Assembly (NCBI GenBank): GCA_028278645.1
Contig: JANQDZ010000013.1
Coordinates: 1-64,000, forward strand
Source of the DNA: Longimicrobiales bacterium
GTDB taxonomy: Bacteria > Gemmatimonadota > Gemmatimonadetes > Longimicrobiales > Gaopeijiaceae
Length of the DNA: 64,000 nucleotides
Direction of reading: 5' to 3'
Shown here: in pieces, positions 4,395 to 21,749 of the stretch
Layout: each line of letters begins with the position of its first letter
Position numbering within the stretch: the stretch's first letter is position 1
The notes under the pieces: generated by a model
What the model was told of the DNA's origin: nothing
What the model saw: the letters and a program-made list of their open reading frames with translations, nothing else
Database searches by the model: none
Translations under genes and position numbers: made by a program

Positions 4395-5045
4395 CTACCC
4401 TCCCAAGGAAATACCGTATCCGATCCGGAAGGAGAACGCCCGGTGGTTTACCTCACGGCTGGTTCCGTCGGCACCAGGATCGATGTTGGTCAGCCCGTAG
4501 TTGTAGCGGCCACCGAAAATAATTGATCCAGGCCCTGCCCTGACCGAGAGCCCACCGCCGAGGACCACGCCAAAGTCTCTGGACTTGATTTCGACGTTCG
4601 ATTCATCGCAGTCGGTGCTGATGCCCGCGCCGTGCCCTTCCCCTTCGACCTTGCATGTGGTCCTCAACCCAAGAGCTGGGCCCACCAGGAAATACGGGAC
4701 AACACCACCCTCCTTTGGGATGTTAAAGCGCAGGAGAACGGGGATTTCGACGAAATCCCAGGCATAGGTGGATTCAAACCCGTCACCGGAGAGCCCGGTC
4801 CCCTTTTGGACGTAAAAAACTTCCGGTTGGATGGAAATGAAGTCCGTGACTGGCACCTCCAAGAACACCCCCAAACTGATCCCCTCCCGATAGCCGTGTT
4901 CATCGCCACCCAATTCTGAACCGGTCACAGAAATCTTGGCCAGGCTGAGCCCACTCTCAAATCCAAGTGTTTGTTGGGCTGGAAGACCGGAGGGGGAAAA
5001 GAGGAGAACCACATATCCGACCACAATAACCGAGAGCTTCCTCAA
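4395..5045 (-). CDS. Outer-membrane beta-barrel protein (PorT-like)
   Basis: The product (216 residues) is a secreted protein whose body alternates polar and hydrophobic residues and ends in paired strands, as in small outer-membrane barrels of the PorT/OmpW kind. I place the start at the TTG at 5045, because AGGAGG lies five bases upstream and the peptide then begins with a clean signal sequence (MRKLSVIVVGYVVLLF, cleavage near LPA-QQ). An upstream in-frame ATG would give a 28-residue extension with no signal character. It is transcribed away from the plug lipoprotein at 5345. The function is unknown. Confidence 0.75.
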   Translation of the reverse strand: MRKLSVIVVGYVVLLFSPSGLPAQQTLGFESGLSLAKISVTGSELGGDEHGYREGISLGVFLEVPVTDFISIQPEVFYVQKGTGLSGDGFESTYAWDFVEIPVLLRFNIPKEGGVVPYFLVGPALGLRTTCKVEGEGHGAGISTDCDESNVEIKSRDFGVVLGGGLSVRAGPGSIIFGGRYNYGLTNIDPGADGTSREVNHRAFSFRIGYGISLGG

Positions 5046-5344
5046 GAGGACCTCCTGGGTATAGGTAGGGCAGGATTTCTTGAAGGTGGTACAGGCTAGC
5101 CCCCGAATGGATCCCCCACACCCCGCCACCGGCCGTCCACGACGCTGCGGCCAACTGGTGTCCGTTTTTGGTGAATAAGCTGTCGCATTTGGAGGACAAT
5201 ACTCGGCGAGGTGGCGCTTTAGTCATGGCTCCGGCCCGGGCATACGGCTTGCATCTGGAAACCTTGTCTATCACGCCGGCGCAGGCTCACGCCATCGCAG
5301 GAAGATCGGCGAGTGTTCGGGGTCGGCCCAACGGAGGTGTTTCG
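5046..5344. other. Intergenic region between two divergent envelope genes
   Basis: These 299 bases separate the divergent outer-membrane barrel and plug-lipoprotein genes and must hold both promoters. I see the two ribosome-binding sites at its edges (AGGAGG for the barrel gene, GGAGGT for the lipoprotein) but no convincing -35/-10 pair. Confidence 0.5.
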
Positions 5345-5824
5345 ATGCAGATGCTCTCTGGATTCGTCCCTACCGGCTTCCGATCCTGGCTCTCCAGCGC
5401 GCTCGCCCTGCTGATACTGACGGGTTGTGCGACCACCCGACTGGCCGAGGAGGGGGAGCCATCGAGGAGTGAGACTCTGGATGTCGGTTACGGGACCATC
5501 CAACGAGATCATCGGGATGGCTCGGTCTCTACCGTGTATGCCGACGAAGTCCGAGTCATGCATCCCAGGACGATGATCGATCTACTGGCACGGCTACCGG
5601 GCGTACGGGTTAAGGAGAAAAATGGGTATCTCAATGTACTCGTTCGGGGATCCGGGCCGCTTTATGTAGTCGATGGTATGATCTTCAGAGGGAGCATTAA
5701 TAGCATTAACCCCAGTACCGTGGAATCCGTATCAGTCTTGAAGAACGCGGGGGAAACAGCCATCTACGGGAGTCAGGTCGGCCACGGCGGCGTCATCCTC
5801 ATCAAGACGAAGGGGGGAGGCTGA
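5345..5824 (+). CDS. Lipoprotein with a stand-alone TonB-receptor plug domain
   Basis: This 159-residue protein has a signal peptide ending in a lipobox (LILTGC, Cys28). About 110 residues follow that match the plug of TonB-dependent receptors: RTMIDLLARLPGVRV, a VLVRGSGPLYVVDG segment and the closing GVILIKTKGG. No barrel follows; the gene stops right after the plug. The ATG at 5345 has GGAGGT upstream and gives the correct signal peptide; the frame stays open further upstream without signal character. Such isolated plugs occur as SusC-like adaptors or decoys, but no partner receptor is in this window. Confidence 0.8.
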   Translation: MQMLSGFVPTGFRSWLSSALALLILTGCATTRLAEEGEPSRSETLDVGYGTIQRDHRDGSVSTVYADEVRVMHPRTMIDLLARLPGVRVKEKNGYLNVLVRGSGPLYVVDGMIFRGSINSINPSTVESVSVLKNAGETAIYGSQVGHGGVILIKTKGGG

Positions 5825-5931: not shown

Positions 5932-5976
5932 AGAGCTGACGATCGGACTCGAACCGATAACCTGCTGCTTACAAGG
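5932..5976 (-). repeat. attL: 45-bp duplicate of the tRNA-Thr(TGT) 3' half
   Basis: These 45 bases are identical to 21675-21719, which form the 3' half (anticodon loop to acceptor 3' end) of the intact tRNA-Thr(TGT). The match stops at 5976 and the rest of the tRNA is absent. This is the displaced 3' end left when an element integrates by site-specific recombination into a tRNA gene, and it marks the left end of the island. Confidence 0.93.
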
Positions 5977-6556: not shown

Positions 6557-7004
6557 GGAGTTGCTCTGGGTCCGGAAAGGTTTCTAGGCGGGAGCCATTC
6601 GCGCCCCAATGATACGCGAAGGCCGCGCTGACCGCACCCGTGCCTTTTGGCGATGAGTCTGCCCCCTTCCCTACGCCATCGGGGGGAAACCGCCGGCAAC
6701 CGCCAAAAACCGTGGGTAATAACACGGGTTTGGGCACGTTCGGGACCCTCCCCTAGCGGCCTATTCTCAACCGGGTTAATCTTTTTAATTCCCCACGAAA
6801 ACCAGAGCGTCCGGGCGGAGCGCAAAGGCTCCTCCCGCCTACCTTTGAAGGGGGCCGAAAATGCCAGGCAACGTGATCAGGTGGCCGGGTAGGTCGGCGA
6901 AGAGCTCCGTCCACTGGTTGGAAAGGCCCCCCTCTATCCGCAGCCTCCTCATCCCGGCGTTCACGGTGTTCTTGCCGACCGCATGTGCCGGTCCTGTCGC
7001 TGAA
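6557..7004. other. Non-coding or decayed stretch of the island
   Basis: These 448 bases hold no gene I can support. There is a 5-bp hairpin CCGTG...CACGG at 6710-6727 and an AT-richer patch near 6775-6800. An in-frame extension of the next gene back to 6861 reads like random sequence and lacks a ribosome-binding site. Confidence 0.4.
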
Positions 7005-7862
7005 ATGAGTGACCGACAGGTTGCTTTGCTTGTCCTTCTTTTTCTCTTCGGAGTGGCTGTAGCGCTGATGATGGCATACCAGCTGTGCAAGGTGGTGTAC
7101 TACTTCGCTTGGCGCGTGGTTGCTCCCGAAAGCTGGTACCTCAAGAACTTCAAGAAAGACCTCCTCGCCGAACGGCCAGGTGACATAAAACCTCTAAAGA
7201 GGTTTTATGCCCGGTACGGACAGACCAAGGCTTCAGACCTCTTGTTGTTTTACGTCTCTGGGGAGATAGGGAAGATGAACGCTTCAGCGCATACGTTCGT
7301 TGATGCGGACGAGGTGAATCTGGTTGCGGCTCTGATCAGGAATGCCGCAAAGGCCATAAAGGAGTACGGAGACGAGAAGAGCATCCGGCTTGCTGAAAAG
7401 GCATTCCGCATGGTGATGGGAATGATCCCGTCTGAAGCAAAAAGGGCGACAATGCTAATGGATATAGCCAAAGAGGAGATCGTATCATCCCATTCGACCA
7501 TCAATCCTCTCCAAAAGCCGATCCGAGATGCATTAGGAATTCTGACAGGAGTTGAGCTTCCTGAGATAGGAGGCCGAAAAGTAGAACGGACGGCAAGAAT
7601 TGTCATAGAGGGTGGAGTCACGAGAGATGTTGCCCAGGAGATTCCTGGGAAGGTAGGCGGTTTTGGTGCTGAGGTGTTTGTCACGAGGGAAGGTCTTGAA
7701 CCGATTGACGCGAAGACCTTTAGAATGTACGGCCTACGAGTTGAGAGGGGCGATGTAGTAAGGATATCAGCAGAAGGTGATGATGCCGAAGCTGCGGTAG
7801 ATGCCCTTTTGGGCTTCCGTTTTGAGGGTAAGGAGGTGTTTTCCCGGGTTCCCGATCCCTAG
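7005..7862 (+). CDS. Membrane-anchored protein with degenerate HPr-like C-terminal domain
   Basis: The product (285 residues from the ATG at 7005) opens with a membrane helix (VALLVLLFLFGVAVALMMAY, residues 5-24). A helical middle region of about 170 residues follows without a known domain. Residues 196-273 read like HPr, the phosphocarrier of the PTS: strand TARIVI, a GVTRD segment where HPr has GLHxRP, then EVFVTREG, DAKTFRMYGLRVERGDVV, RISAEGDDAEAAVDAL. The core and final helix match HPr closely, but the active-site His is Thr and the motif is one residue short, so phosphotransfer by the PTS is unlikely. The start is uncertain: no ribosome-binding site is visible and the frame is open back to 6861. 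The function is unknown; a regulatory or protein-binding role is inference. Confidence 0.7.
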   Translation: MSDRQVALLVLLFLFGVAVALMMAYQLCKVVYYFAWRVVAPESWYLKNFKKDLLAERPGDIKPLKRFYARYGQTKASDLLLFYVSGEIGKMNASAHTFVDADEVNLVAALIRNAAKAIKEYGDEKSIRLAEKAFRMVMGMIPSEAKRATMLMDIAKEEIVSSHSTINPLQKPIRDALGILTGVELPEIGGRKVERTARIVIEGGVTRDVAQEIPGKVGGFGAEVFVTREGLEPIDAKTFRMYGLRVERGDVVRISAEGDDAEAAVDALLGFRFEGKEVFSRVPDP

Positions 7863-8349: not shown

Positions 8350-9507
8350 ATGACCGGAGAACCAACACCATTCCTTCAGGTTGATCTTGGGGAAGAGAAT
8401 GGGACCCGCGTCTTCCACTCCAAAGAAGAAGTCAAGAGGTGGATCGAGGCGGAGAAGAAATCCTGGAACTGGCTTTTGGGCTTGGGACGCCAGGTGTCAA
8501 ACACTGTGCAAACCTACTTCGACAACGTCACTGGGTACGTGAACGCCATCTCTGAGGAACCCACTCCTAACGAGGTTTCGAAGCTTCAGGGACGAATTGA
8601 ATCCGCATTCCAGGGAGAAGGTCTGCCGACGACCGAATCCCCCACAGGCCGGTTCCTGAAGGAATTGGGGGAAAGAGAACCCGCCGTCGGAGCAGGAGCG
8701 ACCTCTTTCTTTCTCCCCAAGGTCACCAATTTAGAGGTTTCTGATAAAGGGTTCTTCGAGGGTGCCCAGTTAGCCGTGTTATACGAACGGGGGATGTACG
8801 AGACCGCCGAAAGCGAGCGGGCGTCACTCCAAGCCCTTCGGAATCGCTGGGAGCAAACCTTAATTCAACAGGACGCAAGATTCCGTCAATCAGCGGATAG
8901 GGGGGACATCCTAACGAACTCCAGCGATGAAGCTGAGGTGGCTCGCGTAAAAACCTTCGATCGGTTTCTGGAAGAAGCTGTGGGAAAGAAAGACGCTTTT
9001 CTAAAGAAGGGGATCAAGGATCTAGAAGCCATCGCCAGTACTTATGACGAAAGGCTCTCACTCCAGGCCCCAGTCAAGTATTGGACGGACAAGAGCACCT
9101 ACCACGGAAGGTGGAGCAAAGTATTCGCCGCACTAACCGTCGTCGCGGCTGGTGGAGTCGTAACCGGATTAGTTTATGCATTCAATGCTTTCCTGGGAGA
9201 CGCCACCACCTATTCTCCAGCCGAGTTCTGGGAGATCGGTATCGTTGGTGCGCTCGCCGTGATCGGGGTTTGGTCCTTACGGATCCTAGTGCGAGTGATG
9301 CTCAGCCATCTCCACCTACAAGCCGACGCCGACGCCCGGGCGGTCATGGTCGAAGTCTTCCTTTCCCTGATTCGCAGTGAATCCGCCCTCGCTGACTCAG
9401 ACCGGCATCTGATCCTGAATGCCCTTTTCAAGCCGATCAGCACCGGCATCGTAAAAGACGACGCCGTCCCCACCTCCTTGCTGGACGTGGTCACCCGCTC
9501 GTCCTAG
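8350..9507 (+). CDS. Helical membrane protein, possibly DUF6161-like
   Basis: This is a 385-residue protein. Residues 1-240 are mostly charged helices, including a coiled-coil-like stretch (about 150-240, ending DLEAIASTYDERLSL). A conserved-looking APVKYWTDKSTYHGRW segment precedes two membrane helices (about residues 256-280 and 296-318). A basic/His-rich cytoplasmic tail follows. The arrangement (RWIEAE near the start, YWxxKxxxH before two helices) recalls DUF6161 from memory, which I cannot check. It lies alone on the plus strand of the island. A role is unknown. Confidence 0.65.
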   Translation: MTGEPTPFLQVDLGEENGTRVFHSKEEVKRWIEAEKKSWNWLLGLGRQVSNTVQTYFDNVTGYVNAISEEPTPNEVSKLQGRIESAFQGEGLPTTESPTGRFLKELGEREPAVGAGATSFFLPKVTNLEVSDKGFFEGAQLAVLYERGMYETAESERASLQALRNRWEQTLIQQDARFRQSADRGDILTNSSDEAEVARVKTFDRFLEEAVGKKDAFLKKGIKDLEAIASTYDERLSLQAPVKYWTDKSTYHGRWSKVFAALTVVAAGGVVTGLVYAFNAFLGDATTYSPAEFWEIGIVGALAVIGVWSLRILVRVMLSHLHLQADADARAVMVEVFLSLIRSESALADSDRHLILNALFKPISTGIVKDDAVPTSLLDVVTRSS

Positions 9508-11960: not shown

Positions 11961-13283
11961 ATGCGACAGACCCTGGCCATCACACTTACCGTCCTAATGG
12001 CTGTCACACTTACTGGACCGGTGGCGGGTCCAGACGATGGGACCCCGATTAAAGGGGGCACCCCCACACAGCCGGGCGAATACGAAGCGGTTGGCACTGT
12101 TGGAGGTTGCACGGCAACGGCCATCACGAACACCCAGGTGTTGACCGCTGCACACTGCGTGTGCCCTACCGACTTCGGTACCACAGGGTGTGCGCCGACG
12201 GCCACCTTCAGGCTCCACGACGTATTCCCAGTCGACGACCCGGCTACCGCGGTGGATGAATCGAGTACCCGAACTGATTTGACCATCGCCGGTTCGGTCC
12301 GGGTACACCCCGAGTTTGGACAGCGGGGGTGGTTAAGGGATGACCTCGCAGTCATCGACCTGAACCAGCCCATCGACCAGGTTGCCCATGTGACACCGAT
12401 CCCTGTGGAGGCTCCCACCAACACGCCTTTTGAGGGTCACGCACTCGCGCTTGTTGGGTACGGAAGGACCGGCGAAAACTGCAGCGGACCCTCCGCCGGA
12501 AAGCGGAAGGTGACCATTCATGCCTCAAAAAGCGCCTGGGCAGTCATCAACTTCGACGATAAGCCGGCGTATGCGTGCCCAGGGGACTCTGGAGGCCCCC
12601 TGCTAAACACTGCCGGCCATGTTGTGGGGGTCGCCTCCTGGAATGACAACAACGGAGACAGCCACTACAGACCGACATCGTTCAGCTACAACTGGGTATT
12701 CAACCTTCCCCGACCGGGTTGGGCATGGTCTTCATGGGAAAAAGTGGAACAGGCGGGGATCAACAGCCACCAACCAGGCTCAGCCTGGTGTCCGGAAGGG
12801 ACTTTCATCGCGGGGTTTGATCTAGATGGGGACCGGGAAATCAGTTCGGCTGACGCTCCAGTAATCGGACAGGTTCTGTGCGCTGGTCTGGAGGAACCGG
12901 AGGCTTCCAGCTGGGGCTCGTGTTCCTGGGAACAGGTGGAAAAACAGGGCATCAACAGCCATCAACCCACTCCCTCGTGGTGCCCAGATGGCACCTATAT
13001 CACCCAGATTGATCTGGACCGTGATAGCGGAGCAAGTGCAAACGACTCTCCGGTTGTCGGCCAGGTCCGTTGTTGTTCCATGGCGGACGGCCATTCTCAG
13101 GAATGGGGATCGACCTATTGGATTGGCGTGGAAAAGGAGGGGATCAACAGCCACGGTTGGGGGCCACCTTGGTGCCAAGACGGGGCGTTCTTAACCCAAT
13201 TCGATCTCGACGGAGACCGCCGTCTTAGTGACTACGATGCGCCGGTCGTGGGCCGGGCCAAATGTAGCCGGCCGGGCGGCTGA
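11961..13283 (+). CDS. Secreted trypsin-like serine protease with three C-terminal repeats
   Basis: This 440-residue exported protein has a signal peptide (residues 1-22 or so) and an S1-family domain with a complete triad: His65 in LTAAHC, Asp128 in RDDLAVIDL and Ser210 in PGDSGGPLL. After about residue 253 come three repeats spaced 64 residues apart (254-307, 318-371, 382-435). Each has the pattern VExxGINSH, WCxDGxFxxxFDLDGD, DAPVVGxxxC, with an acidic Asp-rich loop like a calcium site. The repeats probably bind a ligand or surface. The ATG has AAGGAGG upstream. It sits alone in the island; the cargo protease may act outside the cell. Confidence 0.85.
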   Translation: MRQTLAITLTVLMAVTLTGPVAGPDDGTPIKGGTPTQPGEYEAVGTVGGCTATAITNTQVLTAAHCVCPTDFGTTGCAPTATFRLHDVFPVDDPATAVDESSTRTDLTIAGSVRVHPEFGQRGWLRDDLAVIDLNQPIDQVAHVTPIPVEAPTNTPFEGHALALVGYGRTGENCSGPSAGKRKVTIHASKSAWAVINFDDKPAYACPGDSGGPLLNTAGHVVGVASWNDNNGDSHYRPTSFSYNWVFNLPRPGWAWSSWEKVEQAGINSHQPGSAWCPEGTFIAGFDLDGDREISSADAPVIGQVLCAGLEEPEASSWGSCSWEQVEKQGINSHQPTPSWCPDGTYITQIDLDRDSGASANDSPVVGQVRCCSMADGHSQEWGSTYWIGVEKEGINSHGWGPPWCQDGAFLTQFDLDGDRRLSDYDAPVVGRAKCSRPGG

Positions 13284-13315: not shown

Positions 13316-14075
13316 GTAAGGGCGAACAAATCAAAAGTACTCACCAGAGAAGAGCTGTACGAAGCGGTCTGGACGAAACCTATGCGGACTTTGGCCTCTG
13401 AAAGGGGCCTCTCCGACGTCTGGTTGGCCAAGATCTGCAAGAGGGAGGGGATTCCGAGACCGGGGGTCGGGCACTGGGCAAAGGTGAAGCACGGGAGGAG
13501 TGTCTGCACAGTATTGGGACCGTGGCTGGATATCCATTTCGGTTCCCCCCAACCGACGGGTTAGTGAATCACGAAAAAGAAGCCTGGGCCTTTCGGTTAT
13601 TGGCAGGACCGAACGGTCTCCTCAGCTCGAACCCTGGAGGAAGTTGATTCTGGAATCCCGCATATCGGGAGCTCGGGTACCGATGGTGGCTCCGGTTTTG
13701 GCGGTTGCAGCGGTTGATTCATACGTGGAGTCTGCCACCGAAGAAGCCATCCACGGCAGACGACCTGACAGCTGGAATGGGGCTTTACGCAAATCATTTG
13801 GGATCCAGTTACCTGACCTCCTCGGCGAGGAAAACTACCGTCGCCTGGACCGAGTAAGGGGTGTGAGAAATGCTCTAGCCCACGGCGATAAGTTCCGTGA
13901 CACCCTCCCAGAAGATGTAAGAGACCAAGAGAGACGATTTGAGGAACACGCCGCCCTGATTGATCCTCGGCTGGCCCTTCCCCCCTATGTGGTTTTTTGT
14001 CTGTCTGAATCGCTTAGGGTCATCAGGAGTATCCGGCGGTTTCTTCGGTTAGGCCGGTGTCCCCAAGAGAGCTGA
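13316..14075 (+). pseudogene. Broken gene: TREELYxxVW domain plus HEPN-like domain
   Basis: The first frame (from 13316) encodes LTREELYEAVWTKPMRTLA, GLSDVWLAKICKREGIPRPG and HWAKVKHGR, an N-terminal domain common in uncharacterised bacterial proteins. It has no start codon before the motif; a stop lies at 13313. Near 13500 the reading frame shifts and continues for about 190 residues (13500-14075, possible GTG start at 13500). This part has a helical domain with VDSYVESATEEAI and RGVRNALAHGDKF. R-x4-H (Arg123, His128) with the following helix suggests a HEPN-type fold, often an RNase. Either the gene is decayed, or the HEPN half is now expressed alone. Confidence 0.55.
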
Positions 14076-16899: not shown

Positions 16900-17613
16900 T
16901 TACGTGGTTTCCGCGGTGAGACCCGTTATCAAGTCGATGGCTTTTCGGCCTTCTTGCGTCAGGTGGAAGGAAGAAAAAGTGTCGAACTCGGGATCGCGCG
17001 ATGGGCTTTGGTCGATTTCCAGAAGGCCGGTTTCCACAAGAACAGACATCTGATCATCCGAGATACCCGCCTCCGCCAGTCTCTCGAAGAACCCATCCAC
17101 GACGTCGTCTACGAACCATTCCCCGTCTAATGCACGAAGAGCCGCCACAAAAGACTCAGGTTCTCCAAATTTGGACGCAATCAAACGCTCCAACCCCTCC
17201 CTCCCTCGAATGTACCTTTCCGAGGCACCGAGCATGTCCAACATCTCGCTCGCCAGGATCAAAACACGGCCTGCGCCAGTTCCGGTAATGTTGCGCCCAT
17301 CATGGGCTGCGTAGTTCCGGTAATACCGGAATGCACCCTCAAATAGCATCCGGCCCGCTTCCTGCTGTTTCGGATCAAGCGAAAGGTGGAGGTAGAGGCC
17401 CTTTTCTTGATCTAAAACCTTCCGAACCAGACGGACTCCAAACTCATTCGGCGATCCGCCTGAGTGATCCCGAAGGGCCACTTCGACCTGTTCCATGGCT
17501 TCCAAAGCCGCCTGGGAGAAGAACCCCGAATCGAAGAGGTCAAGACATTCTTTAAGAATCCGAGGGTGCAAGAATGCATCAATTCGGCTGGAGGCCCGTG
17601 TTGATTGGTTCAC
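16900..17613 (-). CDS. Ymh-family (TIGR02391-like) HEPN protein
   Basis: This 237-residue protein's first 130 residues match the TIGR02391/Ymh pattern: HPRILKECLDLFDSGFFSQA, ALEAMEQVEVALRD, EFGVRLVRKVLD, EGAFRYYRNYAAHDGRNI and VLILASEMLDML. RNYAAH (Arg99, His104) is the R-x4-H motif of HEPN RNases. A C-terminal winged-helix-like tail (LVETGLLEID, FHLTQEGRKAIDLITGL) follows. The start is a GTG. It lies 55 bases downstream of the XRE repressor on the same strand, so the two may form a regulated operon. Ymh proteins are frequent on mobile elements; their function is not established. Confidence 0.7.
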   Translation of the reverse strand: MNQSTRASSRIDAFLHPRILKECLDLFDSGFFSQAALEAMEQVEVALRDHSGGSPNEFGVRLVRKVLDQEKGLYLHLSLDPKQQEAGRMLFEGAFRYYRNYAAHDGRNITGTGAGRVLILASEMLDMLGASERYIRGREGLERLIASKFGEPESFVAALRALDGEWFVDDVVDGFFERLAEAGISDDQMSVLVETGLLEIDQSPSRDPEFDTFSSFHLTQEGRKAIDLITGLTAETT

Positions 17614-18689: not shown

Positions 18690-19139
18690 ATGGTGGACCT
18701 CTTTTCCCCTCAATTCAGGATGTTTGATCTGACACCTAATCCAATCGATGGGCGCGGTTTTCGCGAAACGCCCCGGGCCATAGAGGATATCCCAGACTGC
18801 GGGATTTCTGAGGGTGATTGGGTGGTGCATGCCTATTCTGCGCAGAAGCGTCACCTCAAAAGGATTCGTGTCCCCTTCACCCAACTACCTCGAACGAAGT
18901 ACCAGGCTCTTTTGGACGGTTTCAACTCACTCCAGCTGGTCGCCCGGTTCAGCCCACACCGGACCCTTCGCCGAAACCTGAAGAACAGCATGGCACAACG
19001 CGGCAAACAGCCTGGCCCCGTGGTCATCGTTCGTCCGCTCTGGAGTGGTGTCTCTGAACCGATCCACGCTGCCTCGGCGGAGGCTGCAATCTTCGAGTTA
19101 ATCCGGCCTGTCGGCTGTCGGATGCCGAAGGAGGTGTGA
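18690..19139 (+). CDS. Uncharacterised protein upstream of the integrase
   Basis: A 149-residue frame starts at an ATG with GGAG six bases upstream. It ends in a TGA at 19137-19139, two bases before the integrase ATG, so the two would be coupled. The sequence is basic in its second half (LPRTKYQALLDGFNSLQL, then PHRTLRRNLKNSMAQRG) and matches nothing I know. It occupies the place where an excisionase is often found, but there is no recognisable helix-turn-helix. Confidence 0.45.
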   Translation: MVDLFSPQFRMFDLTPNPIDGRGFRETPRAIEDIPDCGISEGDWVVHAYSAQKRHLKRIRVPFTQLPRTKYQALLDGFNSLQLVARFSPHRTLRRNLKNSMAQRGKQPGPVVIVRPLWSGVSEPIHAASAEAAIFELIRPVGCRMPKEV

Positions 19140-19141
19140 CG

Positions 19142-20371
19142 ATGGCAAAACGAAAGAAGCTTTGGTCGAAGCAGATCGAGGAGGCTGGACTTTCGATCCG
19201 GTTGTTCGAGCGGACGACGGGCGGCGTAATCTCGTTGTCCATCGTGACCGGCAGGAAGGACGGGGAGGCCCAGAAGTACGTGAAGTCCACCGGGCTCAGA
19301 AACAAATCCGATGCCGAAGAGAAGGCCCGGGCTGTCGCCAGGAGCGTGGCCAAACTGATCATCAACGCCGAGGACCTCCAGTCCCTTACCTTGGGCCAGG
19401 TCCTCCAAAAGTTCTTCGCCGAAAAAGCGCCGTCATATACCGAACGGTGGAGGAAGCACGCCGAGACCCGCAGGAACCTGTTTATAGCAGCTTGGGGTGT
19501 TGATAAACGGGTTGAGGACATAGGACAGTCAGATGTGGACCGCTACGCCTCACAGAGGCGCTCAGGGGCGTTAAAGCCACCGGGCTCCAGGGTGAAAGCT
19601 GTCCGTGACGGGACGATCGAAGCCGACCTCCGGTGGCTTGCGTCAGTGTTCAATTGGGCGAAGGGCGTGAAGGTCAACCGGAAGAGACTCTTGGCCTCAA
19701 ATCCTCTGACTGGTCTAAGACGGCCCAGGGAGGAGAATCCCAGACGGCCCGTCGCATCCCATGACCGCTACCTGAAAACTCTGGCGAAGTGTGATGAAGT
19801 CGATCCCGAAGGGCGGCTCCAGTGTATGCTCGCCCTCGCACGCTTCACGGGTCGCAGGGAGGGTGCGATATGCCAACTCAGGGCCGACGACGTTCTGAGG
19901 GGAAAGCAAGACGTCAGAGCGGCGCTGGCAGCCCTGGGCCTCGATGAAAACGCCGCTGACCATTTCCCTAACGGCGGCATCCGATGGAGGGCCGAAACCG
20001 ACAAGGTCGGACTCGATTCCATCACGCCGCTGAATGGCCAGGCGAGGGAAGAGATGGACCGCTACCTGGAGAGGAACCCCCGTATCGGGAACACGCCCCT
20101 CTTCCCTTCTCCAAAGGATCCAGCGAAGCCTTTCCGGGGCGACATCGCCTCCAAGTGGCTCGTGAAGGCTGAGAAGCGCGCAAAGCTTCCGAAGCTGGCG
20201 GGCGGGATCTTCCACCCCTATCGGCGGCTGTTCGCCATCGAGTTGAGAGCACTGCCTGTTCATGACGTAGCCGCTGTTGGTGGATGGAGAAGCGTCCGGA
20301 CTGTACAGCAGATTTACCAGCGTGCAGAACCAGCGGGAGTCCTAGGAGCGATCGAACAAGTGGGAAGCTAA
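19142..20371 (+). CDS. int: Tyrosine recombinase / integrase of the island
   Basis: This 409-residue site-specific recombinase has an N-terminal arm-binding region, a core-binding SAM-like domain (LTLGQVLQKFFAEKAPSYTE, about residues 80-180) and a catalytic domain. The catalytic domain has Arg in FTGRREGAICQL, HPYRR (H-x-x-R), Trp in GGWRS (often His) and the nucleophile Tyr in VQQIYQRA. I start it at the ATG at 19142, with GGAGG seven bases upstream; a GTG two codons earlier is possible. It lies 1.3 kb from the intact tRNA-Thr(TGT), the usual position for the enzyme that inserted the element there. Confidence 0.92.
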   Translation: MAKRKKLWSKQIEEAGLSIRLFERTTGGVISLSIVTGRKDGEAQKYVKSTGLRNKSDAEEKARAVARSVAKLIINAEDLQSLTLGQVLQKFFAEKAPSYTERWRKHAETRRNLFIAAWGVDKRVEDIGQSDVDRYASQRRSGALKPPGSRVKAVRDGTIEADLRWLASVFNWAKGVKVNRKRLLASNPLTGLRRPREENPRRPVASHDRYLKTLAKCDEVDPEGRLQCMLALARFTGRREGAICQLRADDVLRGKQDVRAALAALGLDENAADHFPNGGIRWRAETDKVGLDSITPLNGQAREEMDRYLERNPRIGNTPLFPSPKDPAKPFRGDIASKWLVKAEKRAKLPKLAGGIFHPYRRLFAIELRALPVHDVAAVGGWRSVRTVQQIYQRAEPAGVLGAIEQVGS

Positions 20372-21674: not shown

Positions 21675-21719
21675 AGAGCTGACGATCGGACTCGAACCGA
21701 TAACCTGCTGCTTACAAGG
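21675..21719 (-). repeat. attR: 45-bp core in the intact tRNA-Thr(TGT)
   Basis: These bases are identical to 5932-5976. They form the tRNA 3' half, which the element regenerates on integration so that the tRNA stays functional. Confidence 0.93.
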
Positions 21720-21749
21720 CAGCTGCTCTGCCAATTGAGCTACGTCAGC
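21677..21749 (-). tRNA. tRNA-Thr(TGT), island integration target
   Basis: The minus strand folds as a full 73-nt tRNA: acceptor GCTGACG/CGTCAGC, anticodon loop CTTGTAA, T-loop TTCGAGT. The anticodon is TGT (Thr). It is the equivalent of thrU of E. coli, which heads the Thr-Tyr-Gly-Thr-tuf cluster there; here it lies 20 kb upstream of tRNA-Tyr on the same strand. Confidence 0.97.

Follow-up and report, generated by a model that had tools for sequence, protein, structure and literature searches.

We identified, in a 64,000-nucleotide stretch of DNA from a Longimicrobiales bacterium (hereafter the window), a gene whose 440-residue product appears to unite export, proteolysis and an attached three-repeat domain in one protein, a combination that its sequence supports well. 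The repeat module has no named domain at threshold; its probable remote relative among named families is VOMI, the family of the hen egg protein VMO-I. The gene is rare and patchy in distribution and lies within a tRNA-associated genomic island.

A chymotrypsin-fold protease with a signal-peptide-like start

The features of the gene are as follows; domain residues are numbered from position 12720.

11961..13283, + strand: S1 protease gene with three C-terminal repeats (open reading frame, 440 aa)
11961..12029, + strand: signal-peptide-like N-terminus MRQTLAITLTVLMAVTLTGPVAG (hydrophobic segment, judged by eye)
12048..12713, + strand: chymotrypsin-fold catalytic domain (Pfam match; alignment to solved chymotrypsins)
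12153-12155, 12342-12344 and 12588-12590: catalytic triad His65, Asp128 and Ser210, respectively (alignment to solved chymotrypsins)
12720..12881, + strand: repeat 1, Cys pair 24-54 of the domain, EF-like loop 12819-12854
12912..13076, + strand: repeat 2, Cys pair 88-118, second Cys pair 68/119, EF-like loop 13011-13046
13104..13265, + strand: repeat 3, Cys pair 152-182, EF-like loop 13203-13238

An earlier note on this DNA had described the product as a secreted protease, and this description is borne out by the signal-peptide-like start, by a complete triad and by a strong match to Trypsin in the Pfam scan (PF00089; E 2.3e-21, residues 30-236, 77.1 bits vs. a cut-off of 20.6). The triad motifs TAAHC, DDLAVIDL and GDSGG align with those of solved chymotrypsins, and all three triad residues are kept in a Marinobacter homologue. 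Counting six residues before the active Ser places Tyr at the specificity position of the window protease and Asn at that of the Marinobacter enzyme, and the protease is therefore not trypsin-like. The window protein shares the fold, the His-Asp-Ser triad and the GDSGG motif with S1 chymotrypsin-like proteases, but differs from them in this specificity residue and in its three-repeat C-terminal tail. Matches of the protein to the PADLOC families RT-Protease and LmuA were rejected as generic trypsin-domain matches.

Three repeats with probable Cys pairing and an EF-hand-type loop

The tail is built from repeats that advance in exact 64-residue steps, with GINSH at domain residues 13/77/141, WC at 23/87/151, DLD at 34/98/162 and V(V/I)G at 48/112/176. 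Repeat-to-repeat alignments scored 163-185 vs. at most 59 in shuffles (z 29-33; 2000 shuffles per pair), and a 192-nt spacing is still detectable in the DNA of the repeats. The interval 12720-13265 opens at the first Trp of repeat 1 and ends with the final Cys of repeat 3, so that the earlier note was right about the three 64-residue-spaced repeats and about their coordinates. Its motif descriptions are right as well, with slight deviations in individual repeats (DAPVIG in repeat 1; DLDRD and DSPVVG in repeat 2; WCQDG in repeat 3).

Nine repeats could be compared, three each from the window, Marinobacter similis and a second Marinobacteraceae genome (L012); since the two Marinobacter sequences are closely related, these do not represent nine independent events. 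Invariant across the nine are W, V, G, S-H, W-C, G, D-L, D, P, G and C. Two invariant Cys occur in each repeat at a spacing of 30 residues, or of 28 in the third Marinobacter repeat. A second pair, with one Cys immediately preceding the repeat's first conserved Trp and the other directly after the closing Cys, is present in 5/9 repeats and absent from 4/9, its two members thus keeping company in 9/9, counted over a set in which two sequences are close relatives. The proposal that the Cys are paired agrees with both patterns: disulfide stapling of the repeats is strongly suggested, and the co-occurring extra Cys bear, just as strongly, the mark of an optional second disulfide inside the repeat.

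All three window repeats (3/3), and 7/9 overall, also match DxDxD-x6-D, the spacing of an EF-hand-type loop. In the window, Asp is found at loop positions 1, 3 and 5 and an acidic residue at position 12; one of the seven matching loops has E at position 3, and position 6 is Arg or Ser, not the usual Gly. The third Marinobacter repeat has lost the Asp loop and kept the Cys pair. The likeness of the Asp-rich loop to a calcium site, which had been pointed out before, is well founded as a matter of spacing, and it suggests that the loops may bind Ca2+.

A probable remote relationship to the VOMI family

Nothing in Pfam, NCBIfam, PHROGs or PADLOC matched the repeats above any cut-off. The best Pfam match over the window repeats was VOMI (PF03762; E 3.3e-4, 21.2 bits vs. 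a gathering cut-off of 25), in which residues 22-124 (repeats 1-2) align to profile positions 16-115 with the Cys register kept. The M. similis tail matched the same model below the 25-bit cut-off (E 3.2e-3, 18.0 bits), and the tail of the second Marinobacteraceae protein gave no VOMI match in the Pfam scan. The earlier statement that no named domain shows this pattern is hence correct insofar as Pfam and NCBIfam models all stay under their cut-offs, but it passes over a sub-threshold match to VOMI in Cys register.

Two true bacterial VOMI proteins (127 and 122 bits), relatives of egg VMO-I, were found in a single Pseudomonadota genome out of 229 sampled (genes at L014 1291-1992 and L016 1501-1986, the latter on the - strand). 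Against an HMM built from 1VMO and these two proteins, the window domain beat 4998/5000 shuffles and both Marinobacter domains beat 5000/5000; in the reverse search with repeat profiles, the two bacterial VOMI proteins beat 4998-5000/5000 shuffles. 1VMO alone was not significant against the repeats (149-194/5000 shuffles equally good). An unrelated CPxG fragment, used as a control, also scored slightly (6-13/5000 shuffles equally good), and part of the VOMI signal is therefore that of a generic motif. Profile-profile comparison with VOMI gave E 0.0013-0.0027 for a single comparison, at low probability.

VMO-I has a beta-prism fold and three pseudo-symmetric repeats, each of which opens with CPxG and ends its Cys pair 31 residues further on. 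Its structure consists of three Greek-key sheets around a three-fold axis that match its internal repeats, with disulfides at the base; it binds GlcNAc oligosaccharides and heparin (PMC9363672). The tail resembles it in being secreted, in its predicted beta structure and in its three tandem repeats, which are present in 3/3 homologues. It also shares the CPxG start and a closing Cys 30-32 residues on: the Cys-Cys spacing is 30 in the window, 31 in 1VMO and 32 in bacterial VOMI (31-34 over VOMI repeats in general, excluding the divergent third repeat of 1VMO), and the register CPxG...F.L...D...C is kept. In contrast, the tail repeats are 64 residues long vs. about 53 in VOMI, the VOMI signature DDTALN is replaced by D(A/S)P(V/I/Y)VG, the score stays below the Pfam cut-off, and the EF-like Asp loop, the invariant Ser-His and the fusion to an S1 protease belong to the tail only. 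Taken at the twilight level at which these comparisons operate, a remote kinship of the tail with VOMI is probable, though unproven.

Predicted structures, which left L012 aside, were consulted alongside. An AlphaFold model of all three repeats, from a two-row alignment, was poor (pLDDT 41); a model of repeats 1-2, built on a six-row alignment in shifted register, was nearly all beta (pLDDT 70, pTM 0.65). Single and profile sequence searches of the PDB with the repeats returned nothing credible, and a Foldseek search of solved structures with the two-repeat model returned none with E < 1, VOMI not being among the matches, an absence compatible with the kinship. A structural second look yielded a sole chain with Z of at least 2, namely PCSK9 531-682 (Z 2.2, rmsd 4.6 over 94).

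Other origins for the tail

The strongest competitor, which we judge a good deal short of probable but to be taken seriously, holds that the tail is a new, small, Cys-stapled beta repeat unrelated to VOMI, arranged as a three-bead or three-fold tail, and that its likeness to CPxG...C reflects convergence on a common disulfide-hairpin motif. It would account for a VOMI match that stays under its cut-off, for a generic CPxG control that scores somewhat too, and for solved structures that match neither by sequence nor by fold. It sits less well with a homologue about 45% identical that shares the three-repeat count, the Cys register and the best Pfam match, and with profiles including bacterial VOMI that beat nearly all shuffles in both directions. 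The PCSK9 modules bear on this point as well: they form another Cys-rich three-module tail, and they do not beat shuffles. PCSK9 is likewise a protease with three tail modules, and the structural hit noted above could be taken to mean that the tail is a PCSK9-type Cys/His-rich C-terminal domain of resistin-like modules. This we consider highly improbable: the tool itself notes that a Z of 2.2 does not exceed chance, and the repeat profiles scored PCSK9 no better than 933-3362/5000 shuffles, a shuffle-level result on which the relation was dropped. PCSK9 also has three disulfides per module and a subtilisin catalytic domain. What is common to both is three Cys-rich modules on a secreted protease; they differ in disulfide number and protease clan, with no detectable sequence relation.

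The Asp loops invite a further explanation, in which the loop is the functional core of an EF-hand or dockerin-like calcium module and the tail docks the enzyme as cellulosomal dockerins do. Besides the loops in 3/3 window repeats, there is a weak match to Dockerin_1 (E 0.0066) and one to the EF-hand (E 3.7). The former reaches 17.1 bits vs. 22.9 for Dockerin type I (PF00404) and covers the loop only (15 residues). Dockerins are helical and have two loop repeats, each about 22-24 residues long, and we know of no conserved disulfide in them; the tail shares the DxDGDxxLxxxD loop with them and with EF-hands, but its repeats are 64 residues long, three in number, Cys-stapled and predicted beta, with almost no predicted helix. 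Moreover, the third Marinobacter repeat dispenses with the loop and retains the Cys pair. We regard this explanation as improbable.

A rare gene on a tRNA-Thr island

To find relatives, 84,980 genomes were scanned with exact peptide-pattern seeds, an approach that favours near relatives; it returned one, in M. similis, and a family-level search added the second, in L012. The M. similis protein is 43% identical to the window protein over its full length, and the architecture is conserved between the window genome and Marinobacter, with a protease and exactly three repeats in 3/3 homologues. The architecture turned up in none of 395 sampled genomes of the window's phylum and in none of 121 genomes of its family; around Marinobacter, 369 gammaproteobacterial genomes and 391 of the same order yielded no relative beyond the two, and plasmids, phages and viral contigs held no credible relative. 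Even for the catalytic domain, neither 97 relatives nor the rest of its own genome gave a match at E 1e-10. Two further hits from the genome searches, L009 and L011, were read and then judged to be chance.

At both Marinobacter loci, the gene next after that of the protease encodes a pentapeptide-repeat protein with an N-terminal hydrophobic segment (L012 2068-2937; L001 5517-6349), which in M. similis (L001) is frame-broken into two ORFs; no pentapeptide-repeat gene follows the protease gene in the window. No tRNA lies within about 19 kb of the Marinobacter loci.

In the window, the protease gene lies inside a 15.8-kb tRNA-Thr genomic island, whose borders and integrase are these:

5932..5976, + strand: attL, an exact 45-bp copy of the tRNA-Thr 3' end
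21675..21719, + strand: attR, the matching end, inside and adjoining the tRNA-Thr
21676..21749, - strand: tRNA-Thr (TGT), the island integration site
19136..20371, + strand: tyrosine (phage-type) integrase (PF00589 E 6e-7)

The GC content is 0.572 inside the island vs. 0.609 and 0.622 outside. The histidine kinase gene that stands to the left of the island lies, in a same-genus genome, about 200 bp from the matching tRNA-Thr, and the tRNA flank therefore appears to have received insertions in the window. Between this kinase and attL, at 4395-5824, are a gene for an outer-membrane barrel and a short ORF for a TonB-receptor plug; the sister genome leaves no room for them between kinase and tRNA, and they are perhaps an older insertion at the same tRNA. 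Within the island, the cargo includes a DUF6161 protein that also matches PADLOC AbiZ, a phage-resistance family (8350-9507; E 9e-16), a weak HEPN-like match (13500-14075) and Hypoth_ymh (16900-17613), which together suggest a defence-type island. The cargo at 6861-7862 is a protein of 333 aa that carries a PTS HPr domain at its C-terminus and matches nothing in Pfam over its N-terminal part.

A possible role for the tail

The reading that we prefer, and to which we give about an even chance in its entirety, is that of an exported S1 protease, borne on an island, whose VOMI-like, Ca2+-looped three-repeat beta-prism tail docks on a surface or glycan. The C-terminal 190 residues would form one domain of three tandem all-beta repeats, each stapled by the invariant WC...C disulfide (Cys 30 residues apart) and some by a second disulfide as well. 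Together the three repeats may fold up into a beta-prism-like domain with three-fold symmetry that is very remotely related to hen VMO-I; in this domain, the EF-hand-type Asp loop of each repeat would probably bind Ca2+ and stiffen the domain; the VOMI kinship, the beta-prism and the calcium loop are each suggested by the comparisons above. The tail would then tether the protease, close to its substrate, to a target surface or glycan. The gene itself is accessory, being carried as cargo by an island integrated at tRNA-Thr. Docking, in line with the surface- or substrate-binding role that the earlier note thought possible, is inferred because of what such tails and VOMI domains do elsewhere, and the tail most likely serves to anchor the protease by binding a surface or glycan; its ligand and target are a guess. 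In rotifers, VOMI domains are fused to lectin domains (PMC8878817).

A bolder proposal, which we think rather unlikely, is that the tail stands for an undescribed family of disulfide-stapled, calcium-loop beta-prisms (or for an unrelated three-fold fold) that docks mobile-island proteases on a specific glycan or cell-surface target, possibly against competing microbes.

Should the kinship with VOMI be true, the lectin-like fold of an animal egg coat also exists in bacteria, joined to a protease and borne on a mobile island. This would provide a family model for a repeat for which no Pfam model reaches threshold, and it would also connect targeted proteolysis with glycan binding by a beta-prism, in a way open to testing.
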